Shown: piece after piece, positions 9,995-57,522 of the stretch
Numbering within the stretch: the stretch's first letter is position 1
How the letters are laid out: each line of letters begins with the position of its first letter
From: Roseithermus sacchariphilus
Lineage (GTDB): Bacteria > Bacteroidota > Rhodothermia > Rhodothermales > MEBIC09517
Length of the DNA stretch: 64,000 bases
Direction: 5' to 3'
NCBI GenBank assembly: GCA_003285105.1
Contig: CP030158.1
Span: forward strand, 558,001 to 622,000
Notes under the pieces: model-generated
What the model saw: only the letters and a program-made list of their open reading frames with translations
The model's database searches: none
What the model was told of the DNA's origin: nothing
Translations under genes and position numbers: made by a program

Positions 9995-11173
<1,179 letters not shown>

Positions 11174-11281
11174 GGCGGGAGGCTGCCGGCCGGGGGCTCC
11201 GGGCTCCCGGGGTGTCGGCGGCTGTCCTTTCTGCGGCGGAGCGCGTAGTTTCGAGCTTCTCTGCCACGTTTCTGCCGCCGC

Positions 11282-12481
11282 ATGAAGCTCGGGACTTCCT
11301 CGCTCGTCGTCGCCGCGTTCGTCGGTCCCGGCACGGTGCTGACCTGCGCCTCGGCGGGGGTGCGCTTCGGCTACGACCTGGGGTGGGTGCTGCTGTTCGC
11401 CACGGCGGCGGCGTTCGTGTTGCAGTCGCTGACGGCCGCCACGGGCATTCTGGCGCGCAAGGGGCTGGGCGAGGCGCTGCGTGAGACGGCCCGGACGCCG
11501 GTGCAACGCGGGGTGCTCTTCGGCCTGGTGGTGCTGGGGCTGTGGGTCGGCTGCGCGGCGTTCGAGATGGGAAACCTGATCGGGGCGGCCTCGGGCCTGC
11601 ACGCCGTGTTCGAGCCCGAGCTCGACCTGCGCTGGATCGTCGCCGGCCTCGGCCTCGTCGCCGGGCTGCTGCTGCTCCTGGAGGTGCAGGCGCTGATCCG
11701 TGCCCTGGCCGGGCTGGTGGCGCTGATGAGCCTGCTCTTCCTCGCCACGCTCGTGCTGGCGCCGGTCGACTGGGGCGCGGCGCTGGCCGGGCTGGTCGTG
11801 CCCCGCCTGCCGGAGGGCAGCCTGCTGACGGTCGTCGCCCTCATCGGCACCACCATCGTCACCTACAACCTGTTCCTGCACGCCTCGGCCGCCCGGCGCT
11901 ACTGGGCCGGCGCGCCAGCACACGCCGCCTGGCGGCAGGAGCTACGGGGGATGGCGCTGTTCATCCCCCTGGGCGGGCTCATCTCCTTCGCCATCCTCGC
12001 CGCCGGCGCCACGCTGGCCGGCACCGGAGCCGAGGCCTCCCGCGTTGCCGACTTTGCCGTGCTGCTGGAGCCGGTGGCCGGGCCGGCAGCCCGCTACCTC
12101 TTCGGCGCCGGCCTGCTCGCCGCCGGGCTCACCTCGGCCGTGACGGCCCCGCTGGCGGCCGCCTCGGGCATCCGCGAACTCTTCGGCTGGCCGGACCGCC
12201 GGGACGACCCCCGCGCCCGGCTCGTGTGGGCCTCGGTGCTACTGACCGGCCTCTTCTTCGGGCTGTCCGGCGTCTCCCCGCTGCCGGCCATCATCGCCGC
12301 ACAGGCGGCCAACGGCCTGCTGCTGCCCTTCATCGCCGCCTTCGTCCTGCTCCTGGCCGCCCGGCGGCACCCCCATGCCCTGCCGCGCTGGTACGTCCTC
12401 GCCGGCGTCCTCGTGACGCTCATCTGCGCCGCACTCGGCCTGCGCACGCTGTGGTGGGTGTGGACGAACCTGGGCGTGTGA
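11282..12481 (+). CDS. Nramp-family-like transporter with divergent metal-site motifs
   Basis: A 399-residue integral membrane protein with about 11 hydrophobic segments and an Nramp (SLC11/LeuT-fold) outline: VGPGTVLTCASAG in TM1 and TTIVTYNLFLHASAARRYW in TM6. The canonical metal-binding DPGN of TM1 and MPHN of TM6 are both replaced (PGTV and VTYN), so substrate selectivity may differ from manganese or iron. It stands alone between korB and the Ig-like lipoprotein. A cytoplasmic-membrane uptake role is likely from the family; the ion is unknown. Confidence 0.75.
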   Translation: MKLGTSSLVVAAFVGPGTVLTCASAGVRFGYDLGWVLLFATAAAFVLQSLTAATGILARKGLGEALRETARTPVQRGVLFGLVVLGLWVGCAAFEMGNLIGAASGLHAVFEPELDLRWIVAGLGLVAGLLLLLEVQALIRALAGLVALMSLLFLATLVLAPVDWGAALAGLVVPRLPEGSLLTVVALIGTTIVTYNLFLHASAARRYWAGAPAHAAWRQELRGMALFIPLGGLISFAILAAGATLAGTGAEASRVADFAVLLEPVAGPAARYLFGAGLLAAGLTSAVTAPLAAASGIRELFGWPDRRDDPRARLVWASVLLTGLFFGLSGVSPLPAIIAAQAANGLLLPFIAAFVLLLAARRHPHALPRWYVLAGVLVTLICAALGLRTLWWVWTNLGV

Positions 12482-34300: not shown

Positions 34301-34740
34301 TGGTCTACGAACACGAAAGCGCCCAGTGCATGCGCTGTCACCAGATCGGAGGCGAGGGCGGGGGCGTTGCCCCGGACCTGACGACCATCGGCGACCGGGC
34401 AGACCGGCGTGCCCTGCTGGAGTCGCTGATCCGGCCAAGCGCCGTGATCGCGCCCGGCTACGGCGAAGTCACCCTTACCCTGCGCAACGGCGACCGCCTC
34501 CAGGGCCGCCTGCTGGCCGAGACGGACACGGAGATCACCGTGCAGACGTCGGACGGCTCGGCGCGCACGGTCGCCCTCGATCGCATCGCCGAGCGGTCGA
34601 ACGCCCCGTCGGCCATGCCGCCGATGGACCTGCTGCTGTCCCGCCGCGAGATCCGCGACGTCATCGCCTACCTGGCCACGCTCCGGCAAGCCCCCGCCAC
34701 GGCGGACGCTTCGGCGGACGTTTCGGCGGACGCCCCGTGA
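31309..34740 (+). CDS. PVC-type dehydrogenase lipoprotein with HEAT repeats and cytochrome c motif
   Basis: About 1,143 residues. A GTG start (31309, or 31300) gives a lipoprotein signal ending LIAGC. A membrane-bound-dehydrogenase propeller follows (ALTLWATEPMVVSPVALSVD, GVVYVTETRRR, DTDGDGVADSSTVFADG, GLTMGPDGRVYWTIGDIG, EIAFDAFGNLFTADND). About 450 residues of HEAT repeats come next, then a C-terminal haem-binding domain (AQCMRCHQIGGEG, CxxCH) and NGDRLQGRLLAETDTEITVQ. It is anchored in the envelope and likely oxidises an unknown substrate through its own haem. It is related to the protein at the left edge, which carries a copper domain instead. It shares 4 bases (GTGA) with the next gene. 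Confidence 0.85.
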   Translation: MTPLPRPRIACRARLLPVFLPVFLPILLIAGCSPTPAAPPLPDDVAVTLADDLALTLWATEPMVVSPVALSVDHRGVVYVTETRRRKTSNLDIRRHRDWITDDLSFETIADKRAFLHDRLAPARSADNAAWLDDRNGDGLHDWRDLTVFSDRIHRVLDTDGDGVADSSTVFADGFNTEVTGVGAGVLAADDAVYYTIAPDLWRLRDTDGDGVADQRTALAHDFGVHFGYAGHDMSGLTMGPDGRVYWTIGDIGVDVTEAGGRRWHYPYDGAVLRANPDGSGFEVFARGLRNPQEIAFDAFGNLFTADNDSDKPGDDERIVYVTEGSDSGWRMYWQFGKYTDPRSNDYNVWLAERYHAPAFEGQAAFLTPPVAYHHAGPAGFAYNPGTALSDRWDGYFFVSQFTGTPSQSRITAFRVEPQGASFRLVDDVEVVRGLQATGLAFGPDGALYFADWLEGWEVKDRGRIWRLDTPATARDAARRETQRLLAEGAAGRSTEDLHALLGHADQRVRMMAQFELVRRHAAEPLIDAAHHATDRLARIHGIWGIGQMGRADAAAMAPIVDLLGDPDSEIRAQVARVMGDARYRPALAPLIALLQDDSARVRFFAAEALGKLADPAAIDPLLALLEANADADPHLRHAGALALARIGDTDALVDLATHPARSVRVAAVVALRRLRHPGVAAFLQDADEGVVTEAARAIHDDTSIPDALPALARIIERRGLTSEALLRRALNANLRLGRAGDALRVAAFADRADAPEAMRVEAVQILGVWPNPLALDRVEGRYRDLGTRDPAPVRAAVQPRLEAWLADGPEPMRIAAAHTAGALRLRGAAGHLYRMATTPTEPPAVRTAALDALDRLGDTRRFIAALEAALADAAPAVRTAALTRVLDSDLPADRVTDLLATVLDQGEPREQQTALDALGRLDTDGARRLLQTWMERLLAGTVPPEVQLDLLEAAEAQGTETLQAYLARYDAAKPADDPLASYLETLYGGDPEAGRAVVYEHESAQCMRCHQIGGEGGGVAPDLTTIGDRADRRALLESLIRPSAVIAPGYGEVTLTLRNGDRLQGRLLAETDTEITVQTSDGSARTVALDRIAERSNAPSAMPPMDLLLSRREIRDVIAYLATLRQAPATADASADVSADAP

Positions 34741-35714
34741 CGGCAACCACCGGCCGGCTCCGGCGTACCCCGCCGGTCCCGCCGCCCGACCTCCCGCCTG
34801 CCCCTGCCGCCGTGGACGTGCCCCCCTACGTGACCGAGATCCGCGCCGAGGCGGTCTGGCAGGAAGAGCAGCGCGCGCACGAGGCCCGGCTGCGCCCGGT
34901 GCTCGACCCCTACCTGGCCCGGCGATCCCGCGGGCAGGCGGACCCGGTGATGGATTTTCTGTTCGAGTATTACGCCTTCCGCCCGGCGCAGCTGCTGCGG
35001 TGGAGCCCCGGCCTCGGCGTGGCGTTGGCCGGCCCGGCGGCCGAGGCCTTCCTGGACCGGACCGGCTTCGTCCGGACGCCGGCCGGCGTCACCCTCGATC
35101 CGTCGTCGTTTCCCCGGCGGCGCCTCGACGCCGTGCGGTGGACGCGGCGGCTGCTGGCCGGCACCGCCGCCCGCCCGCCCTTCCTCGGCTGCAGCGGCCT
35201 GCACGAGTGGGCCATGGTCTACCGCACCACCGCCGTCCGCCACCCGCAGGTGCCGCTGCGCCTCCCGCCGGACGCCATCGCCGCCGTCGTCGAGGCCGGG
35301 CCGGTGGTCTGCTCCCACTTCGACGCCTTCCGCTTCTTCACCCCGGCCGCCCGGCCCCTGAACCGGCATCAGCCCACCCGCTCCGCCATGCCGGACTTCG
35401 AGCAGCCCGGCTGCCTGCACACCAACATGGACCTCTACCGCTGGGCCTTCAAGCTGGCGCCGTACGTCCCCGGCGATCTCCTCGCCGACACCTTCCTGCT
35501 CGCCTGTCGCATCCGCGAGGTCGACATGCGCGCCAGCCCCTACGACCTGCGCGACCACGGCCTGAGCCCGATCCCCGTCGAAACGCCGGAGGGCCGCCGG
35601 CACTACCGGGCCTGCCAGCAGCGCTTCGCCGCGGAGGCCGCCCCGCTGCGCGCCCGCCTGATCGCCGCCTATGACCGCCTGATCGCCGCCCTGGACGCCC
35701 CCGGCACGCCCTGA
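34737..35714 (+). CDS. Conserved protein of the '3-methyladenine DNA glycosylase' annotation group
   Basis: A 325-residue protein starting at a GTG inside the TGA of the preceding gene (GTGA overlap, translational coupling). Recognisable phrases are LARRSRGQADPVMDFLFEYY, FRPAQLLRWSPGLGVAL, CSGLHEWAMVYR and GCLHTNMDLYRWAFKL. Actinobacterial homologues are commonly labelled 3-methyladenine DNA glycosylase, but I see no helix-hairpin-helix or known glycosylase motif, so that label should be treated as unproven. The tight linkage to the PVC-type protein may reflect accidental operon structure. Cytoplasmic; no signal peptide. Confidence 0.6.
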   Translation: MTATTGRLRRTPPVPPPDLPPAPAAVDVPPYVTEIRAEAVWQEEQRAHEARLRPVLDPYLARRSRGQADPVMDFLFEYYAFRPAQLLRWSPGLGVALAGPAAEAFLDRTGFVRTPAGVTLDPSSFPRRRLDAVRWTRRLLAGTAARPPFLGCSGLHEWAMVYRTTAVRHPQVPLRLPPDAIAAVVEAGPVVCSHFDAFRFFTPAARPLNRHQPTRSAMPDFEQPGCLHTNMDLYRWAFKLAPYVPGDLLADTFLLACRIREVDMRASPYDLRDHGLSPIPVETPEGRRHYRACQQRFAAEAAPLRARLIAAYDRLIAALDAPGTP

Positions 35715-35813
35715 CCCGGCCCGGCGCTCGGGCCCGGACACAACCCGCCGACGCAACCCGCCGACGGGCCCCGTCGTTAGTCCTGTGGTTACCTCGTCCC
35801 GCCCGGATCTCCC

Positions 35814-36530
35814 ATGCTTCGACTCGTGACACGCTCGCTCCGCCGCCGGCCTGCTCTGTGGCCGGTGCTGCTGCTGGCGGCCCTGCTGCTGCCCATCCCG
35901 GAGGCCCCGGCCCAGGATGCCTATACCTTCCGCATCGCCCGCCTCAAATACGGGGGTGGCGGCGACTGGTACAGCGATGAGACGTCGCTGCGGCACCTCC
36001 TGGCCTTCGTCCGCGAGCACACGCTGCTGGACGTCGCCCCCGAGGAGGACGTGGTGGAACCCGGCAGCGACAAGCTGTTCACCTACCCGTACGTCTACCT
36101 CACCGGCCACGGCAACGTCCGCTTCACCGACGCCGAGGCCGAACGGCTCCGGCGCTACCTGGAAGGCGGCGGCTTCCTGCACATCGACGACAACTACGGG
36201 CTCGACGAGCACATCCGGCGCGAGATGAAGAAAGTCTTTCCCGAGCAGGAGTTCGTCGAACTGCCCTTCAGCCACCCCATCTATCACATCCACTTCGACT
36301 TCCCGAACGGGCTGCCGAAGATCCACGAGCACGACGGCAAGCCGCCGCAGGGCTTCGGCCTGTTCGACCGCAACGGGCGCCTGGCCGTCTTCTACACCTA
36401 CGAAACCGACCTGGGCGACGGCTGGGAGCCGCCTTCCGTCCACGACAACCCGCCCGAGAAACGCCGCGCCGCCCTGCAGATGGGCACCAACATCCTCGTC
36501 TACGCCATGACGCGGCCGATGGTACCCTGA
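35814..36530 (+). CDS. DUF4159 protein, secreted
   Basis: A 238-residue protein with a signal peptide (LLLAALLLPIPEAPAQ). The mature part is the DUF4159 domain: IARLKYGGGGDWYSDETSL, YPYVYLTGHGNVRFT, GGGFLHIDDNYG and FSHPIYHIHFDFPNGLPKI. The domain resembles the GATase1-like fold used in gliding/surface proteins of Bacteroidota and is often next to MoxR/vWA clusters, none of which is here. The function is unknown; periplasmic. Confidence 0.8.
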   Translation: MLRLVTRSLRRRPALWPVLLLAALLLPIPEAPAQDAYTFRIARLKYGGGGDWYSDETSLRHLLAFVREHTLLDVAPEEDVVEPGSDKLFTYPYVYLTGHGNVRFTDAEAERLRRYLEGGGFLHIDDNYGLDEHIRREMKKVFPEQEFVELPFSHPIYHIHFDFPNGLPKIHEHDGKPPQGFGLFDRNGRLAVFYTYETDLGDGWEPPSVHDNPPEKRRAALQMGTNILVYAMTRPMVP

Positions 36531-36603
36531 TCGCTGCAACCCGGACGCAGCCTCCGACGAACAACGGGGCCTTCGCGCCCCCTTCCTCTCTGCTGATCTG
36601 CCC

Positions 36604-36951
36604 ATGCGGACGTTTCTCGTCATCCTGATCCTCGCTGCCGTCGCTCTGGCCCTCACCAACCCCGGCATGGACCGGTTCAAGGACTTCGCCGAGGATCGCT
36701 CCGAGGACATCCTGTTGCAAGAAACCGGCGACAATGCCCTGGGCCGGTTCCTCGCCAACCTCGGCGGCAGCCTGGCCGGCTCCTACGTGGACCGCATCAC
36801 CGAGCGCCGCAACTACCTCCTCTTCAGCACCTACACCGTCGACCTCGACCGCGAGCGGCAGGGCGACGAGTGGCGCTTCCTCGGCATCGCCGGGCAGTTC
36901 CTCGAACTCCAGCGCCCCGAGGGGCTGAACGACGTCCAGCCCGACCGCTGA
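36604..36951 (+). CDS. DUF4359 small secreted/anchored protein
   Basis: A 115-residue protein with an N-terminal hydrophobic helix (FLVILILAAVALALTNP) and the DUF4359 pattern: TNPGMDRFKDFAEDR near the start and RRNYLLFSTYTVDL, FLGIAGQFLEL toward the end. The function is unknown. It probably stays anchored by its N-terminal helix. It follows the DUF4159 gene by 73 bases and could be cotranscribed. Confidence 0.75.
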   Translation: MRTFLVILILAAVALALTNPGMDRFKDFAEDRSEDILLQETGDNALGRFLANLGGSLAGSYVDRITERRNYLLFSTYTVDLDRERQGDEWRFLGIAGQFLELQRPEGLNDVQPDR

Positions 36952-40126: not shown

Positions 40127-43100
40127 CTATCTGGAAAGCAGGGCCACCGAGGCCAGCGGCGCCAGCAGCGTCGAGGCCAGCAAGCCACTGATCACGGTCA
40201 CAGCCAGGCCCTCCCAGAAGTCATCCTCACCGGGGATGATGACCAGCGGCAACATAGCCGCGACGGACGTCATCGTGGTCGTCCACATGGGGCGAAGCCG
40301 CCGGCGAAGCGCCAGACGAACCAGTATACCCGGGGCCCGGTGTGGGCGAGCCCGGCGAAGCCCGCGATACCCGTCGACGAGCAGAATGCTGTCGTTGACC
40401 GCGATACCCACGAGCAAGACCGTACCAATGAAGGCACCCTCGGCGAAGGGGATTCCTGTCGACAAAAACCCGATGCTCACGCCGACGAGCGCCATGGGCA
40501 CGCTCAGCAGCACGACCAGCGGCAACCGCCACGATTCAAACACGGCGGCGGTGATGAGAAACACGAGCGCGACGGTGGCCAATACTACCCCGCCGAAGGT
40601 ACGACGCGTCTCGGCGGTAAAGAAGATGGGCCTGAGTTGCAGGAGTTGATATCCGGCCGGCATAGCAAAGCTCGCCAGGGCCTCCTCCACAAACGTCTGC
40701 GCCATCGGATAGGGACCACGATAGTCAATGCTGACATACCGTCGGTACTGTTGATCCACCCGTTCAATGGCGGCGGGTCTTCTCTCGATCTGGTAGGAGA
40801 GCAGACCGGCCAGGTGCACCGGCGTGCTGTCACCCAGGACGAACGGCCGCTCCATGACACGATCCACATCCATCTGCTCCGCGTCCCGAATCACCAGGCG
40901 CACCGGAATTTGATGTTCGCCGGCGAGGTCAGCGTAGAACGCCGGGATACGCGTGGCAAGGGAGGGACGTAGCCATTCGGCAAGCTGATAAGCCGTGGAC
41001 CCGGTTCGAGCCTGCGCCTCGGCGTCCCAGCGGAAGCGCAGCACGTCCCGAGTCAGGTCATTTCCGGCATCGTACCGGCTGGCGTTGGTATTGACCTCGG
41101 CCACGCGTCGACTGCGACCACGGACGTGTCTGGCAAAGCGATCGACGAGTGTCTCCAGTACGTCGTAGGAGGCGCCCCGCATCTCGACGCGCAGTCCCGT
41201 GATACTCATCCCACTACCGCTGCTATACCCCTGTGGCAGGAGGCCCCCCACGGACACCTCGATCCCACCCAGCCACAGGGCCTGCTGGATCAGTTGCTCA
41301 CGTACCCGGTAGGGCACAAACGTGTTCAGAGCGGCGGGGGTGAACTGGACACGCAGGATGGCACGGTGCTCCTGAATGCGTGACAGCGTACGTGCCACCG
41401 CATCGAAGGCCAGAGCGGTCCGCTCGAACCGCTGCAGCAGCGAGTCGGCCTGCTCGATCGGCGTGCCGGGTGGAAAGGCGAGGTGGACGTTGACCTCTGG
41501 CGGGGCACCGAGGTCCCAACGGGTACCGAAGTCAACCTCACGGAAGAAAGGGCGTAGCACGCCCCCGAAGACGGGGTCGAGCACGGTCCGGGCAGCCCGT
41601 ACCGGTGCGGCGCCCAGGGTTGCGTTGTACAGTGCCGCCAGGCGTGCTTCAGGCCGGTCCGGACGGCCCTCTTGCACGGGTATGTGGTCGGGGAGCAGCC
41701 ACAGAGGGATACCCAGCAACAGGGCCAGAGCCACCAGGGTCATCCGGGGGAACCGGGCGGCACCCCGACAGGCGGCTTCAACGACCCGATGGGGCCACCG
41801 GCGCGGCGGTGACCGGCGCCGGCGCGGCGACCACCATCGAACCAGTACCGGAATCAACACGGCCGCACTCAACAGCGAGGCCAGTAGCGTTAGTCCCACC
41901 AGTACACCGAACGGCCGAAACAACGCCTGTAGTTCACCACTGAGATACACCAGCGGCACCATCACAGCCATGGTGCTGAGCGTCCCTCCCAGCAGCGGTA
42001 CCCACACCGCCTGCAGTACCGCTCCCGCATTCATCGCCGGCGGTAGGCCAGAGCCGGCGCGTTGCTGTAAACGTCCGCGTTGAAAATGCTCCGCTATCAC
42101 AACGCTGTTGTCGACAAGCAGGCCGAAGACAAGAACCAACCCGGCCAGCGTAATCAGGTTGAGCGTCAGCCCAAACGGGACCAGTAAAGCCAGAGCCACC
42201 GCCAGAGCCACCGCCACGCTGAACAGCACGGTAGCTACGGCCCCCGTGCTGCGTAGCATGACCAGCAAGATCAGCACGAGCAGCATCAGTCCCAGCCCAC
42301 CACGCCAGGCCAGGTCGTGCAACTGATCTCGCACATGTTCACTTCGGTCATCGGCGACGAGCAGGCGTACGCCCTCGGGCAGGGTCTCGCGCAACGCCGC
42401 CAGCCGTGCCCGCACGGCCTCGGCCACCGCCAGCATGTGGCTGTCCCGGACCCGATCCACCGTCAGCGTAACCACCGGCTGGCCGTCGATGCGGCTTATG
42501 CTTCGGCGCGGAGCCTCCTGCACCGCAACGCTGGCGACGTCGGCCAGCCGAATCGGCGTTGTCGTGCCTCTCCGCGACCGCACGACGAGCCGGCGCAGCG
42601 CTTCGACCTCCTGTTCGGCAGAGGACAGCAGCAAGGCTCGGCCCGACCCACGGAGCCGCCCATAGACGGCGTCCTTTGTAGCTTCGGCCAGCACGGCGCG
42701 GACCGCTGCCGGGGTCACGCCCAGTGCGTCGAGCCGATCCGGGTCGAGCGTCACCAGCAATTCCCGTTCGGTGCCACCCTCGACGCGCACCTCAGCCACG
42801 CCTTCGAGGCTGCGCAGCACCGGAGCAAGGCGCTCGTCGGCGATCCGGCGCAAGGCGTCCGGAGCGAGCACACCGACGAGTTGAAGGGTCATGAATCCCT
42901 CTTCTTTGCGCAACGCTTCGGGGACCTGCCGGGTCAGCCGGGGGTGAACGTGCTCGGGCAAGACGCCACGCAGCAGCGTCAGCCGCTCTCCGACCCGGGT
43001 TATGTATGTGCTGAGGTCCGTTCCGTCGGCCACCCGGAGGATGACAGTAGACATCCCTTCTCGGGACAGACTCTCGATGCCTTCCGTGCCAGGCACCGTC

Positions 43101-43324
43101 TGCACAGCCCGCTCGATCGGTGCCGTAACGTAGCGTTCCACCTGGCGCGGGGAAGCACCGGGCCAGCTTGCCGTAAGGCGAACCTCCGGGAGTTCCACCC
43201 GGGGCACCCATTCCAGCGGCACTTCGAACGCGGCCCATCCTCCCATGAGTAGCAACGCTACGGCCCATGACAACACGGCCACGGGGCGCTCCATCAGGCC
43301 CGCTATCCACCGATTCACACACAT
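40127..43324 (-). CDS. RND efflux permease 1
   Basis: A 1,065-residue proton-driven inner-membrane pump of the AcrB/MdtB type: a TM1 region (LSWAVALLLMGGWAAFEVPLE), two large periplasmic loops, the TM4 proton-relay GLLVDNSVVIAEH, and TM11-12 FLSTGIPFAEGAFIGTVLLVG. It ends 5 bases from tatC (convergent). It is the last gene of a leftward set that starts with the Cys-rich microprotein at 45.7 kb, 257 bases downstream of the thiol lipoprotein. It has no adaptor of its own, so it may share the one at 49-50 kb. The substrate is unknown; a peptide is possible from context. Confidence 0.9.
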   Translation of the reverse strand: MCVNRWIAGLMERPVAVLSWAVALLLMGGWAAFEVPLEWVPRVELPEVRLTASWPGASPRQVERYVTAPIERAVQTVPGTEGIESLSREGMSTVILRVADGTDLSTYITRVGERLTLLRGVLPEHVHPRLTRQVPEALRKEEGFMTLQLVGVLAPDALRRIADERLAPVLRSLEGVAEVRVEGGTERELLVTLDPDRLDALGVTPAAVRAVLAEATKDAVYGRLRGSGRALLLSSAEQEVEALRRLVVRSRRGTTTPIRLADVASVAVQEAPRRSISRIDGQPVVTLTVDRVRDSHMLAVAEAVRARLAALRETLPEGVRLLVADDRSEHVRDQLHDLAWRGGLGLMLLVLILLVMLRSTGAVATVLFSVAVALAVALALLVPFGLTLNLITLAGLVLVFGLLVDNSVVIAEHFQRGRLQQRAGSGLPPAMNAGAVLQAVWVPLLGGTLSTMAVMVPLVYLSGELQALFRPFGVLVGLTLLASLLSAAVLIPVLVRWWSPRRRRSPPRRWPHRVVEAACRGAARFPRMTLVALALLLGIPLWLLPDHIPVQEGRPDRPEARLAALYNATLGAAPVRAARTVLDPVFGGVLRPFFREVDFGTRWDLGAPPEVNVHLAFPPGTPIEQADSLLQRFERTALAFDAVARTLSRIQEHRAILRVQFTPAALNTFVPYRVREQLIQQALWLGGIEVSVGGLLPQGYSSGSGMSITGLRVEMRGASYDVLETLVDRFARHVRGRSRRVAEVNTNASRYDAGNDLTRDVLRFRWDAEAQARTGSTAYQLAEWLRPSLATRIPAFYADLAGEHQIPVRLVIRDAEQMDVDRVMERPFVLGDSTPVHLAGLLSYQIERRPAAIERVDQQYRRYVSIDYRGPYPMAQTFVEEALASFAMPAGYQLLQLRPIFFTAETRRTFGGVVLATVALVFLITAAVFESWRLPLVVLLSVPMALVGVSIGFLSTGIPFAEGAFIGTVLLVGIAVNDSILLVDGYRGLRRARPHRAPGILVRLALRRRLRPMWTTTMTSVAAMLPLVIIPGEDDFWEGLAVTVISGLLASTLLAPLASVALLSR

Positions 43325-43580
43325 ACCGGCTCCGTGTGCCTTACGAACCGTAAATCGAGTCGCCTTATTCGCAGACCATCCGGTTGAAACGGCAGCGCCT
43401 CAGAGACCATGACCCCCTCACCCGTCCAGGCAAGCGGGGTGCGATGGCTAGGACAACAGGACGCAGCTTTTGAGTTCTTAGCCGCGCCACGATCACGGAA
43501 CCCGCGCCCGGCGGGACCGCCCCATCGTTGCGTGCCGCCCCAACGGTAATGGGAGAACCACCGCTCAGAACACGGAACCA

Positions 43581-44186
43581 TTACGGGGCCGAGGCGCCAT
43601 GCACCCCGAGCAAATGGCTGAGCCGAACGAACGGGTCCTCGCCCGAGGCGGATCGGGTTCGTCGCGGCCATAGTCCGGCCAGAATCCGATGGTCTTTGAG
43701 GACGAAAATAGCCGGATAAGACCAACCCTGCATGAAGGCGATGAGGTCTGGATCCGTGCTGTACCCTACGTCGAATGTAGCTCGGCCCACTTTGCGCAAC
43801 CGCAGGGCTGCCGCCCTGGACGACACCACGTGGGGCTGCACGTCGTCGATGTAGAGTCCAACCATGGGAATACGCCCACCTTGCCTCCGGAAAAGGGTGT
43901 CCAGGCGTTGCATCTGGTATCCCTGCCCCGGATAGCACCCTTCGCGTCCGAGCACCATGATTACGGCTAATCCATCCCGCCGAATCGTCATCACCGAGTC
44001 CGTGACGGCCCGGACATACCGGTCGACCGGAAAGAGCTGTCCCGTGACATGGCCGTGTCTACCGGACTGACCAGACGACCGAGCTGCTCCGTCATGTTCA
44101 CCGGTGTACCGGCAAGCGCTCAGCGCCAGCAGCAGAGCCAACCCGACCACACACTCGAGCACCGGAATGTTCTTGCTTTCATCCAT
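43581..44186 (-). CDS. Monothiol thioredoxin-fold lipoprotein
   Basis: About 201 residues with a lipoprotein signal ending ALSAC. The mature part looks like a redoxin/thioredoxin fold (LAVIMVLGREGCYPGQGY, FDVGYSTDPDLIAFMQ, YPAIFVLKDHRILAGLWP with a cis-Pro-like YP). The usual CxxC is reduced to a single Cys (GREGCYPG), the only cysteine after the lipid-bearing one. It could be a peroxiredoxin-like or mixed-disulfide acceptor. It lies 75 bases after the propeller lipoprotein and is likely in the same transcript. Starts at 44204 and 44255 are possible; 44186 gives the best signal peptide. Confidence 0.65.
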   Translation of the reverse strand: MDESKNIPVLECVVGLALLLALSACRYTGEHDGAARSSGQSGRHGHVTGQLFPVDRYVRAVTDSVMTIRRDGLAVIMVLGREGCYPGQGYQMQRLDTLFRRQGGRIPMVGLYIDDVQPHVVSSRAAALRLRKVGRATFDVGYSTDPDLIAFMQGWSYPAIFVLKDHRILAGLWPRRTRSASGEDPFVRLSHLLGVHGASAP

Positions 44187-44261
44187 GAATCGGGACCGCG
44201 GCATCAGAGGCCTTACCACGTCGGCAAAGCCGGGCGGAAGGCAACGGAACGTCACATGTGT

Positions 44262-45389
44262 TTAAGGCGACACACTTCGGCGATACACTTCGATGGAGGG
44301 GTTCGGCAAATACCCCGCCGCATCCACCTCGGGCTGCACGCTGGTATACGCCAATCCGTTTCGTGCGGCCAGAAAGGGATGGTCGGTCAGTATGGCCCCC
44401 TCGTTGAGCACCCTGCCATCGGTGGTCAACAGCACGATGCCCACTTCCTCGTCTTCATCCCGGTAGGGGTTGATATGCTGGACCATCAACACGGACGGCT
44501 CCAGCAACAGCAGATTGTACGTCATCGAATGGCGCTGGCCCAGGTCCCTGATCGCCTCGGCCAACTGACCGCGAGAGCTACGCATGGGCAAATCCTTGTC
44601 GACGGCCCGGTAATAAGGCGGAGCCCAGCCCAGCGTCTCCACGAACTGCCCTTCTTCCTCGAACACGTACACGTACGGGCTGAACGGGAACGCCACATAC
44701 AGACGATGATCCCCGGTCTGGACGATCCCGCCGCCTTCGATCCTCAGAACGATGTTGCGAAATGCGTCATGCCTCCCGAACGCCGATAGCGTCCTCCCCC
44801 GACGATCCATTCGCCGGATCTCGTACTGGTCAGCAGCATAGAGGCCGTAGAGATACCCGTCCTCTCCCGGCGCCAACAGGCGTGGTGGCATGAACTCATC
44901 AGACATACCTTCCCGGCACGCCCCGTCGGGCGTGAACCAGTACCCCCAGGGACCACCGCCATTGAGCAAAAAAATGTCTCCCGGGGGCGCGAAGTAGGCC
45001 CGGATCGGGCGCATGTTGAACCCCGGATGGCAAGGTTCGGCATCGAGTGTGCGCAGGTGCTTTCCCCCGGACGAGAACAAGAAAACCTTGTTCGAGACAT
45101 GGTCCGTAACGAGCAGTCGCCCCTGGGCGTCGACATCGAGATAGGTCACCGTCCCCACGATGACGGACGTATCCAATGGAATCGACCGACGATGCTCGAA
45201 GGCGTCCTCGAGGCCAAGCACCTCGTCCGAGGAAGAAGCAAAGGCCGGATCGGGTACCCGGGAGAGGTAATCCCCGGATTCCCCACACCCCACGGCCAAC
45301 AGGCCCAGGCCCAGCAGAGCGAACGAGAGCGTACGGAAGCGTCCTCTCTCCCATCCACTCCTGCCATCGGGCCTTATGATCTCGTTCAT
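44262..45389 (-). CDS. 6-bladed beta-propeller lipoprotein
   Basis: A 375-residue lipoprotein (signal ending LLAVGC). The rest is a six-bladed propeller of the type found in Bacteroidota lipoproteins next to small exported peptides: TVTYLDVDAQGRLLVTDH, SNKVFLFSSGGKHLRTLD, DGYLYGLYAADQYEIRRMD, GDHRLYVAFPFSPYVYVFEE. It probably binds a peptide or other ligand at the cell surface. The ATG at 45389 (MNEIIRPDGRSGW) is preferred; longer starts lack a clean signal peptide. It lies 85 bases downstream of the microprotein gene. Confidence 0.75.
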   Translation of the reverse strand: MNEIIRPDGRSGWERGRFRTLSFALLGLGLLAVGCGESGDYLSRVPDPAFASSSDEVLGLEDAFEHRRSIPLDTSVIVGTVTYLDVDAQGRLLVTDHVSNKVFLFSSGGKHLRTLDAEPCHPGFNMRPIRAYFAPPGDIFLLNGGGPWGYWFTPDGACREGMSDEFMPPRLLAPGEDGYLYGLYAADQYEIRRMDRRGRTLSAFGRHDAFRNIVLRIEGGGIVQTGDHRLYVAFPFSPYVYVFEEEGQFVETLGWAPPYYRAVDKDLPMRSSRGQLAEAIRDLGQRHSMTYNLLLLEPSVLMVQHINPYRDEDEEVGIVLLTTDGRVLNEGAILTDHPFLAARNGLAYTSVQPEVDAAGYLPNPSIEVYRRSVSP

Positions 45390-45474
45390 ACGAAGTCGTT
45401 TCGTCTGAAGGAACGGCATCGTTCGCCAGAAGGGGTCGGCTCCCGCAAAACCCGCCCGAAGTGGTCGCGGCCGA

Positions 45475-45741
45475 TCACTGGTTGCCCGGGTCCGGGTCAC
45501 AGAAATAATAACACGTAGTGTCTGACGTGCTGCACTCGTTGCCGGGTCCGGAGCAGATCAGGAGAAAATCACATGGACACCTGGAATCATACCGGTACCA
45601 TTCCATGAACAAACCCGAGGCTGCTCCGGCCTCTCTGACCCCCATGTTCCAGATGGGGACCATCACATAGCCGACGAGCAACAGCAAACAGCCCATCATG
45701 AAACGGAATGCACGCGTACGCTTCAGCCTCTTCAGAGTCAT
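45475..45741 (-). CDS. Cys-rich exported microprotein
   Basis: An 88-residue protein. The start at 45741 is set by a near-perfect GAGGAGGTG Shine-Dalgarno just upstream. It has a positively charged N-terminus (MTLKRLKRTRAFR), one hydrophobic segment (MMGCLLLLVGYVMVPIW), a linker with AGAAS that could be a cleavage site, and a C-terminal tail with six cysteines in 32 residues (RCPCDF, LICSG, NECST, TTCYYFC). Size, layout and neighbours recall the NVEALA-type peptides of Bacteroidota, though the NVEALA motif itself is not present. No function is known; a disulfide-stabilised exported peptide or signal is the simplest reading. Confidence 0.75.
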   Translation of the reverse strand: MTLKRLKRTRAFRFMMGCLLLLVGYVMVPIWNMGVREAGAASGLFMEWYRYDSRCPCDFLLICSGPGNECSTSDTTCYYFCDPDPGNQ

Positions 45742-46104
45742 GATGCACCTCCTCTGGGCGATGGTGGAATAGGACACGATTCACTTCTGATGCGCGTCTT
45801 AAGGGGGGACGCATTTCTGGTCCCCGCATTCATGAAAACCATCGCAGAATCATATCCACAAGGGGTGGGGTCTTATTCACAAAATTTTAACCTTTGCCAT
45901 TATCCATGGATGCTTCTGGAATCGTCCGGTGTACGGGCACGTGCCGGTATCCAAAGGGAAAGGGATACGCAGCCGCCCCCCTTCAACGGCGCACGCACCC
46001 GACATTCTCAACCTCTCACCCCATCGCGCTACAATTTCGACTCCAGGACCATATTCCCGGAACGCATGAGCTGTGATTCGGCCCTGATGCAGGGTTTGTC
46101 TCTC
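45742..46104. other. 363-bp intergenic region upstream of the microprotein gene
   Basis: AT-richer than its surroundings around 45870-45900 (a run including ACAAAATTTTAACC). It must carry the promoter for the leftward microprotein-propeller-thiol-RND set, and the end of the upstream RND operon. No TAnnTTTG element at an ideal distance was recognised and no gene is seen. Confidence 0.5.
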
Positions 46105-49100
46105 TCATGGGAGGGGGCCGGCTTCACGAGCAACCGTCTGGTAGAGTACCGGAACGACCAGCAGCGTCAGGAGGGTGGCGCCGGTGAGCCCGCCCGCGAG
46201 GGCGATCGCCAGCGGCGCCCGCAGTTCGGCTCCCTCGCCCAGTCCAAGCGCCAACGGCAGCAGCCCCAGCACGGTCGTGAGGGTCGTCATCAGGATCGGG
46301 CGCAGGCGATCTCGACCGGCCTGGACGATGGCCTCCCGCACCGAGAAACCGGCGGCACGGCGGCGGTTGATGAAATCCACCTTCACGATGGCATCATTGA
46401 CGACGAGACCCACCAGGACCACGCAGCCGGTGAGGCTCATCAGGTTGATGCTCTGCCCCGTCAGAAGCAGCACCAGCACCACACCCGCAGCCGCCAGCGG
46501 CACGGCGGCGAGCACGACCAGCGGCTGCACCAGACTCTCGAACTGAGCCGCCAGAATGAGGTAAACCAGCAGCACACTCAGAAGCAGACTCAGCCCCACC
46601 GCACGCAGTCCTTCCCGGAGCGTGTCCGCGCTACCCCCGACCCGGCCCCGCACCCCGCCCGACAGCGTAGCCGCAAAGACCTCCTCCACGGCCTGTACCG
46701 CCGCCCCCAGGTCGGCGCCGGGGGCCACACCAGCCGTCAGGCGCACGATGGGCGCTTGCTCCACGCGATATAGTCCAGCGGGTAGCTCGACGAAGGTGGC
46801 CTCAACGAACGTGCTCAGCGGCAACAGCCCCTCACGCGTGGGAATCCACTCAGCCAGCAGCGCATCGATGGAATCGATGTGTCGACTGCGAAGCACAATG
46901 GGGACGGTCTCGTCGACCGTGCGAAGCTCGGTGGCCTGCCACCCGCGTGCACCCGCCTCCAGGTAGGCCGAAAGCGTAGCCGGGCTCACGCCGAAGCGGT
47001 GCAGGTTGTCCCGGCGGAACGTGAGCCGGTAGGCCGGAACCGACGCTGCCTCGGCGCGCTGCACGTCGATCAGTTCCGGCCGCATCCGGAGTTGGGCCAG
47101 CACACGCTCCACGATGGTCTCTGCGTCCCGCCGGTCGTCGCTCACGAGGTCAATCAGCAGATCAGCGCCATCGGGGGTCAGTAGCGCCTCGAGGCGGGTC
47201 GGCTCGGGCCGTACCTCCAGCGAGACGTCGGCCGACAGATCGAGCGCGTGGAGGCGGGATCGGGCCTCGGCGACGGCAAGTTCCGGAGGAAGCAGCAGCA
47301 ACAAATCCCCCTGGTAGGGGGGACGCGGATCCAGGTCGAGGCGGGCCTCATCACGCTCCCCGAGGTCGGCCAGCACATGCAAGGCCAGTCCCATCGACAG
47401 AAACGTTTCCTCGAGAGCTGCGGCCCGGGCGCTCAGGAGCGAAAGGTCCGCATCCGGCGGAAGGGACAGGCGTACCGTCACGCGGCCCAGATCCGTCCGT
47501 GGGACGATTTCCCGGGGGAGCCTCACAGCGATGAGCGTGGTGGCTCCGAGCAACACGAAACAACCCGCCAGCACCCGCCTCCGGTGCGTCAGGCACCCAA
47601 TCAGGACACGCTCGTAACGGTGCATCAGGCCCGCCTTGCGAAACCGCATGCCGGCAGGCCCCCCCGTGCCGGCATGGCGATCTCTGGCGGCAAGGAGCGG
47701 TACGGCTGTCAGAGCCACGAGCAGCGAAGCGGCCAGCGAGGTGACTACGGCCAACGACTGATCGCTGAAGAGCCGGCCAGCCAGCCCCTCGACGAACGTC
47801 AAGGGCAGAAACACCGCCACGGTCGTCAGCGTGCTCGCAGCGATGGCACCGGCCACTTCGGCGGTGCCGTTGAGCGATGCCTCTCGCGGAGCCTGCCCCT
47901 CTTCCCGCAGCCGGGCGATGTTCTCGACGACGACAATGGCATTGTCCACGAGCAGACCCACACCCAGGGCCAATCCACTGAGCGAGATCAGGTTGAACGT
48001 TACACCGAGCACATCGAAAAGCACGAGGGTAAGCCCCAGCGACAGCGGCACCGCCGCGGCGACGGCAACCAGCGCACGCGGGCGACGCAGAAAGACGAAC
48101 AAGACCACGACGGCCAGAAGGGCACCCAATAGCGCCGCCTGTGCCACACCGCCTATGGCTTGCCGTACGAAAACGCTCTCATCCACCACAACCTCGAGGC
48201 GGATACCGGGCAGTTCGGCGTTGAGATCATCCAACACACGCCGCACGTCCTCGGCAGCCCGGACGGTGTTCGCATCAGGCCGGCGCTCGATGAGGAGCAG
48301 CAGCGTCTCGGCCTGATCGAGCCGAACCAGACCGCGTCGCTCTTCGACGCCCTCTCGCACTTCGGCTACGTCGCGCAGGCGCACGAGCGGCTGACCGATG
48401 CCAGAGACGACCGTCGCGGCCACGTCGTCCACCTGCTCGAACTCGCCGCTGACCTCGACGGCGTAACGAAACGGTCCACGCCGGATCATGCCGCCGGGCA
48501 ACGCAACGTTGGCCGCCCGTAATGCCCGGGCGATCTGCTCCATACCGAGATCGTAGGCAGCCAACCGCGCCGGATCGACGAGGATCTCGATACGCCGCTC
48601 GAAGCCTCCCGTGATACGGACACGTGCCACGTCCCGGAGCTGTTCGAGCCTCCGCACGACGACCTCACGCCCCACCTGTTTGAGCCCGACCAGATCCTCC
48701 CGGAGCAGAACGTCCTCCGCCCTGGTCATATCGGCAGTGGCCGTGCGAAGCGCAATCAGCAAGATGGGGCGATCGCTGGGATCAATCTGCAGCACTACGG
48801 GCCGCTCGGCGGCCTGAGGCAGCACATCGCCCAGCCGGTCGATTTGCTGACGTACGTTCAGCAGCGCCAGATCCAGGTCTGCATTCCAGCCGAAATCCAG
48901 CCGCACGAGGCTCCCCCCCAGCAGCGTCCGCGACGTAACGCGAACGAGCCCGTCCGTTCCGGCCACGGCTTCCTCGACGGGTTCGGTGACGGCACGCTCG
49001 ACCCGCTCCGGAGGCACATCCGGGTAAGACGTCCAGACCACCAGACCCGGGTAGCGCAGGTCCGGCAACAGGGCCACAGGCAGACGCAGAAAGGCCACCA

Positions 49101-49179
49101 CTGCCAGCGCCATCAGCAATACATAGATCGCCGTCACAGCCACCGGCCGCCGTAAACACAGGGTGATGAGGGCTTTCAT
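46105..49179 (-). CDS. RND efflux permease 2
   Basis: A 1,024-residue RND permease, distinct from permease 1: MKALITLCLRRPVAVTAIYV at the start, VERAVTEPVEEAVAGTDGL, the TM4 motif GVGLLVDNAIVVVENIARLREEG, and LLTGQSINLMSLTGCVVLVGLVVND. It follows the adaptor gene by 11 bases, so the two form one operon and one tripartite pump. No TolC-type outer-membrane channel gene is nearby, so it would have to use one encoded elsewhere. Confidence 0.92.
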   Translation of the reverse strand: MKALITLCLRRPVAVTAIYVLLMALAVVAFLRLPVALLPDLRYPGLVVWTSYPDVPPERVERAVTEPVEEAVAGTDGLVRVTSRTLLGGSLVRLDFGWNADLDLALLNVRQQIDRLGDVLPQAAERPVVLQIDPSDRPILLIALRTATADMTRAEDVLLREDLVGLKQVGREVVVRRLEQLRDVARVRITGGFERRIEILVDPARLAAYDLGMEQIARALRAANVALPGGMIRRGPFRYAVEVSGEFEQVDDVAATVVSGIGQPLVRLRDVAEVREGVEERRGLVRLDQAETLLLLIERRPDANTVRAAEDVRRVLDDLNAELPGIRLEVVVDESVFVRQAIGGVAQAALLGALLAVVVLFVFLRRPRALVAVAAAVPLSLGLTLVLFDVLGVTFNLISLSGLALGVGLLVDNAIVVVENIARLREEGQAPREASLNGTAEVAGAIAASTLTTVAVFLPLTFVEGLAGRLFSDQSLAVVTSLAASLLVALTAVPLLAARDRHAGTGGPAGMRFRKAGLMHRYERVLIGCLTHRRRVLAGCFVLLGATTLIAVRLPREIVPRTDLGRVTVRLSLPPDADLSLLSARAAALEETFLSMGLALHVLADLGERDEARLDLDPRPPYQGDLLLLLPPELAVAEARSRLHALDLSADVSLEVRPEPTRLEALLTPDGADLLIDLVSDDRRDAETIVERVLAQLRMRPELIDVQRAEAASVPAYRLTFRRDNLHRFGVSPATLSAYLEAGARGWQATELRTVDETVPIVLRSRHIDSIDALLAEWIPTREGLLPLSTFVEATFVELPAGLYRVEQAPIVRLTAGVAPGADLGAAVQAVEEVFAATLSGGVRGRVGGSADTLREGLRAVGLSLLLSVLLVYLILAAQFESLVQPLVVLAAVPLAAAGVVLVLLLTGQSINLMSLTGCVVLVGLVVNDAIVKVDFINRRRAAGFSVREAIVQAGRDRLRPILMTTLTTVLGLLPLALGLGEGAELRAPLAIALAGGLTGATLLTLLVVPVLYQTVAREAGPLP

Positions 49180-49190
49180 GACCCGGCGAT

Positions 49191-50462
49191 TTACCTGTTA
49201 CCCTCGACGAGCACTACCTCGACAGGCGCCTCGTGTGCCAGTGCAAAATGACCACCGACGGCAATGGTATCGCCAGGACGAAGCCCCTCACGGATCACGA
49301 TGTCATCGCCAGATCGCTCCCCCACGGTAACATAGACCCAGTTTACCCGTCCATCCTCGATACGAAACACCAGATCCTGCCCCTGCCGCACCAGAACGGC
49401 CTCGCTCGGCACGGCGAGCCGGTCTGGAAGCCGAGTGACCTCCAATGCAACGTAAGCAAATAGCCCGGCCATGAGCCGTCCCTGCGGATTGGGGATCACC
49501 ACCGTAACGCGGCCCGTCCCCGTGGCCGGCTCTACACGAGGGTTGATCGTATGGACGAACCCCTCGAAGATCTCATCGGCCAGCGCTGGAATGCGCACCC
49601 AGGCTCTGGCCCCGGCCTTCAGACGAACGAGGTCAGCTTCCAGGACGTCTACTTCCACCTTCATGCGGGTATCGTCCAGCAACACCAGTAACGGATCACC
49701 GGCCGCGGCGTGCTGGCCCTCCTCGACGTCGACGCTGGCTACACGGCCGGCAAAAGGAGCACGCACCTCCGTGCGACTCAATGCAAGGCGAGCCCGCTCC
49801 AGACGCAACTCAGCCTGAACCAGCCCGCTCACAATGGCCTGCACATCCCCACGGTCGACGCCGGCCAGTTCGCGCTCGGTTTCGAAGCGACGACGCATCC
49901 TCTGAAGCTCCACCAGGGAAAGCTCACCCCGATCGAAGGCGATCTGGGCCTGCAGCAACGCCGCCCGGGCTCGAGCCATACGCATCGTATCTGCAGGGAC
50001 CGGGAGGACGTCCGTGCGCATGGCGACGGCATAGTCTATCCGTGCCTTGAGCAGGGCCGCCTCCGCTTCCTGCATTTCGATACGTGCGGCCCGGTCATCG
50101 AGGCGTAGCAGGACCGCATTCTGTGGCACGCGTTGTCCTTCCTCCACGTGCCGATGGCGAACGAACCCACTCGTCTCTGCACTGATCTCTGCCTGCCGCC
50201 AGGGGGCCAGACGTCCCGTTGCCTCAGCACGAAGCGGGACGCCCCTTCGCTGCACCACGATCGCCTCGACCAGGGTCCGGGCAGGGCTGGCCTCTACCAC
50301 CGGCCGGTTCGCAGCTTCGGTGCTCTCACCCGTCAGCATCGGCCAGAAAGCATAGACGAGCAGGGCAACGATACCCAGCACAAGCATCCCCCCCGCAACG
50401 TACCCCGCCCTGAATGGCCGAGACTCCCTGACCTGACGCGCTGAACCTGCCATAAACCACAT
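49191..50462 (-). CDS. RND periplasmic adaptor (membrane fusion protein)
   Basis: A 423-residue adaptor: an N-terminal membrane anchor (GMLVLGIVALLVYAFWPML), a first half-lipoyl motif (AEISAETSGFVRHRHVEEGQRV), a helical hairpin (AALLKARIDYAVAMRTD to ERARLALSRTEV), a second half-lipoyl motif (RAPFAGRVASVDVEEGQHA) and beta-barrel/membrane-proximal parts (MAGLFAYVALEV, VPSEAVLVRQGQDLVFRIEDG). The start ATG at 50462 overlaps the TGA of the upstream gene as TGATG, a hallmark of translational coupling; this decides the start over 50489 and 50453. It bridges RND permease 2 and an outer-membrane channel. Confidence 0.9.
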   Translation of the reverse strand: MWFMAGSARQVRESRPFRAGYVAGGMLVLGIVALLVYAFWPMLTGESTEAANRPVVEASPARTLVEAIVVQRRGVPLRAEATGRLAPWRQAEISAETSGFVRHRHVEEGQRVPQNAVLLRLDDRAARIEMQEAEAALLKARIDYAVAMRTDVLPVPADTMRMARARAALLQAQIAFDRGELSLVELQRMRRRFETERELAGVDRGDVQAIVSGLVQAELRLERARLALSRTEVRAPFAGRVASVDVEEGQHAAAGDPLLVLLDDTRMKVEVDVLEADLVRLKAGARAWVRIPALADEIFEGFVHTINPRVEPATGTGRVTVVIPNPQGRLMAGLFAYVALEVTRLPDRLAVPSEAVLVRQGQDLVFRIEDGRVNWVYVTVGERSGDDIVIREGLRPGDTIAVGGHFALAHEAPVEVVLVEGNR

Positions 50463-50857
50463 CACGTCGGACCGCCAGTCGTTTCGCATGCCGGCAACAA
50501 ACGGTCTTCTGCCAGAAAAGATACTTTTACCCCCGGCACATATACAACACAAGTTGCACCCAGGTAGGGTTCTTGACCCACCGGGGGTTTCTCTGTTCTT
50601 GGTGTTAGCACTAGAAGAGGTGCCGTCTCTTGAGTTAGATTGATCCCGGTAAACCGAAATCCACGAAACACAATAACCACTCCATCGAAGGCAACGCATT
50701 CCCCCCCGGGCGGATGAACGAGCCGTTCGACAGACTGCTGCAGGACAAAGCGCCGACGCGCGATGACCTGCACGGTGAGCTCATGATTCAGGATCGCACA
50801 CGCATCCTGCAGCACACTCTGTAAGCCGAAGTCACGAACGTCCTCGGACGCGCTCAC
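50462..50857 (-). CDS. Unknown 131-residue protein coupled to the RND adaptor
   Basis: A GTG start (50857) gives MSASEDVRDFGLQSVLQDAC and continues through LNHELTVQVIARRRFVLQQ, GGECVAFDGVVIVFRGFRF to VYVPGVKVSFLAEDR. Codon use is normal and the TGATG junction with the adaptor supports real translation. There is no signal peptide or membrane helix, so it is cytoplasmic. I do not recognise the family. Its place as first gene suggests a regulator or a partner in loading or maturing the pump's substrate. The open frame extends nine codons upstream (FREGTLV) without a better start. Confidence 0.6.
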   Translation of the reverse strand: MSASEDVRDFGLQSVLQDACAILNHELTVQVIARRRFVLQQSVERLVHPPGGECVAFDGVVIVFRGFRFTGINLTQETAPLLVLTPRTEKPPVGQEPYLGATCVVYVPGVKVSFLAEDRLLPACETTGGPT

Positions 50858-51537: not shown

Positions 51538-52851
51538 ATGATTACTCTTCCACGGCGTTGCGAATTGGTCGTTATTGCTCTAACCAGCCTACTTTTCATA
51601 CTTCCCGGCTGTGATTTAGCAGATGTGGGTCCAACCACCCCTCTTGATCAAGTCACCAAAGACACAAACGAACTCGCTATTGGACCTTACGATAGGGAGC
51701 TATTCAATATTGCCCGGGACTACCCTGGTTTTGGAGGAATGTTCTTCGATGAAAGCGGCGCGCTGATTGTTTACTTGACAGAGCCCGATGCACACCTGAC
51801 ATCCTCGGTCTCGAAAAGCTCTCTGGCAGGTCGCCTCCAATCACTGATTGGTTCTAGCTCTAGTGACGCAGCCAAGGCGGCAACTATTAATGTTCTACAA
51901 GGACAATATGATTTTAGAGAGCTAGCCGAACTCAAAACCTCATTAGTCGATATACTCGATTTTTCCCATGTAGTCCTCGTCGACATTGACGAACGTATTA
52001 ATCGACTAGTGATAGGAGTGAAAAGTGATGCATCTGTAGATCAAGTAGAGGAGATAGTAGCTAAATCTGGATTGCCAACAGAGGCTATTGCTATTCAGAT
52101 CATTGAACCTAAGAAATCTATGGCAACCCTTAGTAGCAAAATACGTCCCCTCTCGGGAGGCCTTAAAACAGAAAGATCAGGATCTGGCTTCGACAAACTA
52201 TGCACATTAGGATTCAACGTTGTTCACGGTACTTACGGGAAGGGATTTATAACAAACTCACATTGTACAAAAGCCAGAGGAGGTAATCAGGGAACAATTT
52301 TCTATCAGCCTGAAAAGGGACTTATCACGACTAACGAAATCGGCACGGAGGCGATCGATCCTGATTGGACCTCTACGGCAAGAGGATGTCCAGCTGGCAT
52401 GTTATGCCGCGAAAGCGATGCCGCGTATATAGACTATTCTGTCTCTCCGTCAGGTGCTACCGTAGGGCGCATCATGAAAACACAATATCCTGGCACATAC
52501 TCTGGTTCAACCACGATCAGCGGACCGTACTTTTATATAAATGGTGAGAACCCATACGCTGTCGTAGGCCAGCAGGTAAACAAGATGGGACACGCGACTG
52601 GGTGGACTCAGGGTAATGTCGTCAGGGCTTGTGCTGATGAAGGAGTCGCAGGCACAAATTACTGGCTTTTCTGCCAAACTGATGTGACAGCTGGCTCTGC
52701 TGGTGGAGATAGCGGTTCGCCCGTTTTTCAGATCATCAGCGGAAATTCGGTTCAGTTGAACGGTATCCTATGGGGCGGAACTGGGACAGAATTTGGCTAC
52801 AGCCCCATACATCTGATTGAAAGAGAAATTGGGGCCTTTGACACATATTAG
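51538..52851 (+). CDS. Chymotrypsin-fold (alpha-lytic/streptogrisin-like) serine protease lipoprotein
   Basis: A 437-residue protein. The signal ends ILPGC, making it a lipoprotein. A pro-region of about 170 residues (DIDERINRLVIGVKSDASVDQVEEIV, typical of alpha-lytic protease pro-domains) precedes a catalytic domain with His242 (FITNSHC), Asp294 (ESDAAYIDYS) and Ser392 (GGDSGSPVF). Cysteines near His and at RGCPAGMLC and ACADEG suggest disulfides. It is AT-rich, unlike its surroundings, so likely acquired. It pairs with the lipoprotein gene 64 bases downstream. It is probably surface- or periplasm-exposed. Confidence 0.85.
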   Translation: MITLPRRCELVVIALTSLLFILPGCDLADVGPTTPLDQVTKDTNELAIGPYDRELFNIARDYPGFGGMFFDESGALIVYLTEPDAHLTSSVSKSSLAGRLQSLIGSSSSDAAKAATINVLQGQYDFRELAELKTSLVDILDFSHVVLVDIDERINRLVIGVKSDASVDQVEEIVAKSGLPTEAIAIQIIEPKKSMATLSSKIRPLSGGLKTERSGSGFDKLCTLGFNVVHGTYGKGFITNSHCTKARGGNQGTIFYQPEKGLITTNEIGTEAIDPDWTSTARGCPAGMLCRESDAAYIDYSVSPSGATVGRIMKTQYPGTYSGSTTISGPYFYINGENPYAVVGQQVNKMGHATGWTQGNVVRACADEGVAGTNYWLFCQTDVTAGSAGGDSGSPVFQIISGNSVQLNGILWGGTGTEFGYSPIHLIEREIGAFDTY

Positions 52852-57074: not shown

Positions 57075-57497
57075 ATGGGCATTTTTGATTTTATCAAAGA
57101 CATCGGCAAAGCCGTCGGCATCGGCAACGAGGCCGAGGAGATCCAGGCCGACATCCAGGCCAAGCTCGCCGGGCAGGTAGAGAACCTGACCGTCACGTTC
57201 AACAACGGCACCGTGATCCTGACCGGCAGCGTGGCCGACCAGGCCGCCCGCGAGAAAGCCGTGCTGCTGGCCGGCAACGTGAAGGGCGTCGAGAAGGTGG
57301 ACGACCGGCTGACCATCCGCGCGCCGGAGCCGGTCTTCTACACGATCCAGAAGGGCGACAGCCTCTCGAAGATCGCAAAGGAGCAGTATGGCGATGCCTC
57401 GAAGTGGAAGGCGCTCTTCGAGGCCAACCGGGAGGTCATCGAGGACCCCGACCTCATCTACCCCGGGCAGCGCATCCGCATCCCGCAGGACGTGTAG
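57075..57497 (+). CDS. BON-LysM domain protein (Kbp/YgaU-like)
   Basis: A 140-residue protein: a short leader (MGIFDFIKDIGKAVGIG), a BON domain (VENLTVTFNNGTVILTGSV ... VKGVEKVDDRL) and a LysM domain (FYTIQKGDSLSKIAKEQYGD ... LIYPGQRIRIP). This is the layout and size of E. coli Kbp (YgaU), a cytoplasmic potassium-binding protein induced by osmotic stress. No signal peptide, consistent with that role. It ends at a strong terminator. Confidence 0.88.
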   Translation: MGIFDFIKDIGKAVGIGNEAEEIQADIQAKLAGQVENLTVTFNNGTVILTGSVADQAAREKAVLLAGNVKGVEKVDDRLTIRAPEPVFYTIQKGDSLSKIAKEQYGDASKWKALFEANREVIEDPDLIYPGQRIRIPQDV

Positions 57498-57522
57498 CCG
57501 CCCCGCCAGACGTACCCTCCGG

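Follow-up and report, generated by a model that had tools for sequence, protein, structure and literature searches.

Small exported peptides are systematically missed, and a short open reading frame in the 64,000-nucleotide stretch of DNA analysed here (the window) raises the question of whether it encodes such a peptide and, if so, which proteins the peptide would work with. The preliminary description had reported an 88-residue Cys-rich microprotein with an excellent ribosome-binding site. The open reading frame is present on the minus strand, and the plus-strand frame at 45475-45741 is interrupted by a stop. On the minus strand the peptide gene comes first, then a propeller gene and then a thioredoxin-like gene, and this module is flanked by two RND genes:

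40127-43324, minus strand: RND transporter (ACR_tran), downstream of the module
43581-44186, minus strand: predicted thioredoxin-fold lipoprotein, TlpA/ResA/DsbE-like, lipobox LSAC
44262-45389, minus strand: predicted 6-bladed beta-propeller lipoprotein, lipobox LLAVGC, DUF5128 (PF17170, E=1.9e-5)
45475-45741, minus strand: gene of the Cys-rich, probably exported peptide, 267 bases, 88 aa, ATG at 45741, stop ending at 45475
45746-45753, minus strand: Shine-Dalgarno sequence AGGAGGTG, 4 nt ahead of the peptide ATG
46105-49179, minus strand: RND transporter (ACR_tran), upstream of the module with a 363-bp gap between
49191-50699, minus strand: membrane-fusion protein (HlyD_D23) belonging to the RND locus; its actual start is uncertain

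Eight copies of AGGAGGTG occur in the window, both strands counted, and only the copy ahead of the peptide gene has an ATG or GTG within 3-9 nt downstream. None of the 30 tiled window open reading frames of at least 200 aa had an anti-Shine-Dalgarno match longer than 6 nt. Thus, the start signal of the peptide is exceptional for this stretch of the genome, and the ribosome-binding site deserves the adjective given to it earlier. No promoter-like sites were found on the minus strand, and an Rfam search over 44-47 kb of the window returned no match.

The peptide has the predicted layout of an exported precursor, as had been proposed: a basic N-terminus with a charge of +6 ahead of the hydrophobic core, a hydrophobic helix at approximately residues 14-31, a putative cleavage region of the A-x-A type (REAGAAS, residues 36-42; candidate signal peptidase I sites between AGA and AS and between GAA and SG) and a cysteine-bearing tail. 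One cysteine (residue 18) lies within the helix and six (55, 57, 63, 70, 77 and 81) lie in the mature tail, where they would form disulfide bonds; the earlier count of six stands, but they span the last 34 residues rather than the last 32. An AlphaFold model contains a single N-terminal helix (residues 3-43) and is uninformative for the unresolved tail (pLDDT <50). These features support the reading of the gene product as an exported Cys-rich microprotein, of a kind that, according to the preliminary description, automated annotation often drops.

No Pfam or NCBIfam model, NVEALA included, matched the peptide, and neither did any known bacteriocin family. Homologues with conserved cysteines, which had been suggested as a check, were nonetheless found in other Rhodothermales genomes and in a second class. 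In other families of the order, genes for peptides of the same layout immediately precede the closest propellers. A search with a narrow propeller alignment showed that the relatives carrying these propellers are Rhodothermales MAGs, and propellers of the same subfamily are directly preceded by homologous peptides in G140, G141, G143, G144, G146, G147 (3 copies) and G149. Representative tails are CYRAFCRDRGTECSRWAGACF (G143) and CYWADCTLWGNECSTWNGACF (G149), as against CDFLLICSGPGNECSTSDTTCYY in the window peptide. All 10 Rhodothermales members compared share the residues C57, C63, G67, C70 and C77 (numbered as in the window peptide), and the conserved pattern that follows the N-terminal helix, C-x(4,5)-C-x3-G-x2-C-[ST], is also present in the window peptide, which deviates from its relatives in the first Cys spacing (x5, not x4) and in the last.

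A leave-one-out profile ranked the window peptide first among all window frames and in the correct register, with a weak E value (0.16), and only 2 of 5000 tail shuffles reached its score. It should be noted that the peptide has no family match and only 88 aa and that identity to its closest relatives is about 30% at most, which would be expected of a non-functional or chance open reading frame with a coincidental Shine-Dalgarno sequence. However, because homologues beside the same gene elsewhere keep the cysteines and shuffles so rarely score as well, the peptide is more than chance; with the exceptional start signal also taken into account, we consider the chance explanation very improbable. 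Selection could be measured in close paralogue pairs that do not include the window gene, most other pairs being saturated at synonymous sites and the window genome being the single genome of its family among the genomes compared. Among the three G147 paralogues, whose synonymous sites are near saturation, dN/dS was 0.10-0.26; in the only measurable pairs it was not near 1, the value that had been named as arguing against the gene, and purifying selection on relatives of the peptide is supported.

The window propeller, the only one of its kind in the window genome, carries CHPGF and GPWGY motifs and two cysteines that are invariant among peptide-linked propellers (C121 and C159 of P0002). In the window, the peptide gene is thus directly followed by a CxPGF propeller and then by a thioredoxin-like gene. 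An iterated profile built from the window thioredoxin-like protein was used to locate the corresponding gene downstream of other propellers, and in most Rhodothermales loci with a peptide it was found directly downstream of the propeller. Among the 61 propellers examined, the thioredoxin-like gene lay directly 3' of the propeller in 12 of 15 loci with a peptide and 6 of 46 without (Fisher 3e-6), and the CxPGF motif occurred in 15 of 15 and 19 of 46, respectively (3e-5). As these counts include paralogues and model-training loci, an independent search in a second class, that of G268, weighs more. There, a blind search with the peptide profile yielded new matches in G636 (E 1e-5) and G494 (3e-5), the only new ones below E 1e-3, and both lie in the order peptide, propeller, thioredoxin-like gene. 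Weaker matches (E>1e-3) in G572, G565 and G283 had no module in the surroundings read and were dropped.

In two of the three second-class loci the peptide gene is directly preceded by a MauE gene (G268; PF07291, E 5e-23) or by a MauE homologue (G494); the window module has none. The set of peptide, propeller and thioredoxin-like gene in two classes of the phylum has no family model and no description in the searched literature. Hence the peptide gene, with its start signal and conserved cysteines, belongs to a three-gene linkage that is found in two classes, and this propeller/thioredoxin module is more informative than the peptide features in the preliminary description, which made no mention of it.

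Several further arrangements were observed. A second module in G268 (L142:2370-3129, minus strand) consists of MauE, an 87-aa Cys peptide unmatched by the profile, a propeller, a thioredoxin-like gene and an RND gene. In G146, peptide and propeller are duplicated in tandem (L079:5498-8859); the peptide tails are identical and the propellers nearly so. The other strand of the same locus (12188..10010) encodes a further divergent Cys-rich peptide, a propeller and a CxxC thioredoxin-like protein. In G059 (L097:11741-12370, minus strand), a more distant propeller is preceded by a tandem of two different small, Cys-rich exported open reading frames. Frameshifted or decayed peptide genes precede intact propellers at L077, L087 and L146. 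In G146, a peptide leader is fused in frame to a propeller (L082:6002-7168, minus strand; the same gene as L152:3842-5008), as if a deletion had taken out the Cys tail and the leader had then become the propeller's signal sequence. A propeller lies between membrane-fusion and RND genes in G228 (L084) and G222 (L109), which, together with the window genes at 40127-50699, suggests a recurring association of propellers with RND systems. Three other window open reading frames (51538-52851, 57388-60093 and 34668-36710; 437, 901 and 680 aa) had no Pfam match at E<=0.001.

Some lookalikes were rejected. A first class-wide peptide search gave frames of about 205 aa at E 1e-4 to 0.1; the plus-strand ones that were read encode HisI/HisIE, whose cysteine pattern (DCDxDALL...CHTG..SCF) is a chance resemblance. 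Another candidate (L007 in G217, CGLDFLLLC) has an internal stop and no module and was left uncounted.

The third protein of the module was recognised by no profile. Its predicted model (pLDDT 82) would adopt a thioredoxin fold, with Foldseek matches to DsbE of Chlorobium tepidum (3gl3, E 8e-7) and to ResA (E 1e-6). The active-site region, GCYPGQ, holds one cysteine (CYPG) and lacks CxxC; one active-site cysteine is also found in several other Rhodothermales copies, and CxxC is kept in the proteins of G149, G268 and G494, in one G146 copy and in L086. With a single active-site cysteine, the window protein cannot work as a conventional dithiol oxidase or reductase, and its sequence argues for an isomerase-like, monothiol or chaperone role.

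On balance, we consider it probable that the peptide is exported, matured through disulfide formation by the redox protein of the module and active together with a cognate propeller. The precursor would be inserted or exported by Sec via its N-terminal helix, and cleavage, probably near residue 40-41, would yield a mature peptide of approximately 47 residues that carries the six cysteines. The lipoprotein of TlpA/ResA fold, whose gene is the second one downstream, might then handle the peptide thiols, so that the peptide would fold into an oxidised form with disulfide bonds, and in two of three loci of the other class a MauE-type membrane protein would join in this thiol handling. Finally, the mature peptide may bind the adjacent propeller lipoprotein, as a cognate ligand or a small subunit. 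The presence of a peptide, a propeller and a thiol-redox protein together in two classes provides a testable mechanism, namely disulfide maturation plus a cognate partner. In addition, a CxPGF propeller followed by a thioredoxin-like gene offers a genomic signature for unannotated peptides, of which G636 and G494 are examples.

Other roles for the peptide can be weighed against the same loci. It might be a secreted, disulfide-matured antagonist resembling a bacteriocin or RiPP, with the propeller serving as immunity protein or receptor and the RND pump exporting or removing it. The decay of peptide genes (the three remnants and the L082 fusion) beside intact and amplified propellers resembles the behaviour of orphan immunity genes; propellers or peptides have RND or membrane-fusion genes close by in the window, G228, G222, G209, G158, G007 and G268; and there are precedents in MauE/MauD genes beside Cys-rich precursors (PMC7794033) and in TMcin (PMC13252029). 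However, the Rhodothermales loci contained no recognisable ABC exporter or dedicated peptidase, the peptide matches no known bacteriocin family, most module loci have no RND pump and the propeller fold is not one known from immunity proteins. Moreover, loss of the peptide with retention of the propeller fits ligand turnover as well as orphan immunity and so does not settle the role. We regard an antagonist as rather unlikely.

The chances appear smaller still that the peptide is a small structural subunit and belongs, as in methylamine dehydrogenase, to a periplasmic protein based on a propeller. That enzyme combines a propeller large subunit with a disulfide-rich small subunit, and its set includes MauE and the thioredoxin MauD. 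A subunit of this kind would agree with the joint occurrence of MauE, a Cys-rich small protein, a propeller and a thioredoxin-like protein in G268 and G494, but the light-chain Pfam model does not match, a conserved Trp pair for TTQ is absent, the propeller is 6-bladed rather than 7-bladed and peptides are lost while propellers persist. An exported signalling ligand sensed by its own propeller lipoprotein, in fast-diverging ligand-receptor pairs, seems about as improbable as the subunit. Fast divergence, several paralogous pairs per genome (G147, G146) and one peptide per propeller point in that direction, whereas the module showed no recognisable sensor kinase, sigma/anti-sigma pair or TonB-linked receptor, and the propellers are predicted lipoproteins or secreted proteins without a signalling domain. 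Exported, disulfide-matured and working with a cognate propeller remains our preferred description of the peptide.

How the module relates to known systems bears on its wider meaning. The nearest lead was NVEALA (PF14055), which had been suggested for comparison. In Bacteroidales, these peptides share with the window peptide a length of about 70-90 aa, an N-terminal helix, a linker of about 10-15 residues ending in a small-residue motif, a tail with cysteines and, directly downstream, the gene of a 6-bladed propeller, the last being a feature of context outside the Pfam definition. In G424, a genome of Bacteroidales type as judged by its NVEALA genes, the gene after every one of the six NVEALA genes encodes a 6-bladed propeller lipoprotein (DUF5128, TolB_like or DUF4221). 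The pairs lie at L139-L141, and L140:3701-6724 adds a signal peptidase I and a CxxC lipoprotein, which has no significant similarity to the thioredoxin-like set. Thus, the lead holds for layout and gene neighbourhood. It fails for family assignment: NVEALA did not match the window peptide at E<=10 and exceeded its curated cut-off in none of 240 genomes of the window's class; the leader ends in VREAGAASG, compared with NVEALA or NIEALG in the G424 peptides, and the NVEALA motif is absent; and hhalign gave probabilities of 5% and 12% for window-type peptides, with only helix residues aligned. Membership is ruled out by profile, motif and hhalign, and NVEALA tails lack the C-x(4,5)-C-x3-G-x2-C-[ST] of the window peptide set.

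The searched literature, mostly outside subscription journals, contains no mention of NVEALA and reports no function for the NVEALA-type peptides known from Bacteroides; DUF5128, DUF4221, DUF4934 and the TolB-like 6-blade propeller are also absent from it, and BF3164 appears only in an unrelated context. We tentatively suggest that the window-type peptides could be part of a hitherto undescribed phylum-wide class of disulfide-rich exported peptides, each having a dedicated propeller lipoprotein plus a thioredoxin/MauE pair for its maturation, in which NVEALA would be sequence-unrelated or a very distant branch and the peptides, each specific for one propeller, would act as antagonists or signals; we hold this to be possible rather than probable.

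Beyond the phylum, the bacteriocin TMcin contains a disulfide, undergoes membrane processing and comes with a DsbA-type enzyme of its own (PMC13252029). Like the window peptide, it has a small precursor with one transmembrane helix, and its C-terminal disulfide and dedicated thiol oxidoreductase can be likened to the module, in which the disulfides of the peptide are only inferred. Unlike the module, it comes from a Gram-positive background with an ABC exporter, a site-2 protease, two conserved cysteines and no propeller. The methylamine dehydrogenase set (mauBEDA) combines a propeller, a disulfide-rich small protein, MauE and a thioredoxin-type protein, as do the G268 and G494 loci, but the peptide is much smaller and the propeller is of the 6-bladed DUF5128 kind. 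The window peptide has no Pfam match to the methylamine dehydrogenase light chain, and the peptide alignment contains no invariant Trp corresponding to the TTQ tryptophans. Disulfide formation in the small subunit of methylamine dehydrogenase has been speculatively ascribed to MauE, and MauE/MauD genes beside precursors with at least 8 Cys mark candidate RiPP clusters predicted by decRiPPter in Streptomyces (PMC7794033). These clusters are predictions only, from Streptomyces and with no propeller described, and the window locus differs from them in having no MauE; what they have in common with the G268 and G494 loci is a Cys-rich precursor beside MauE- and thioredoxin-type proteins.
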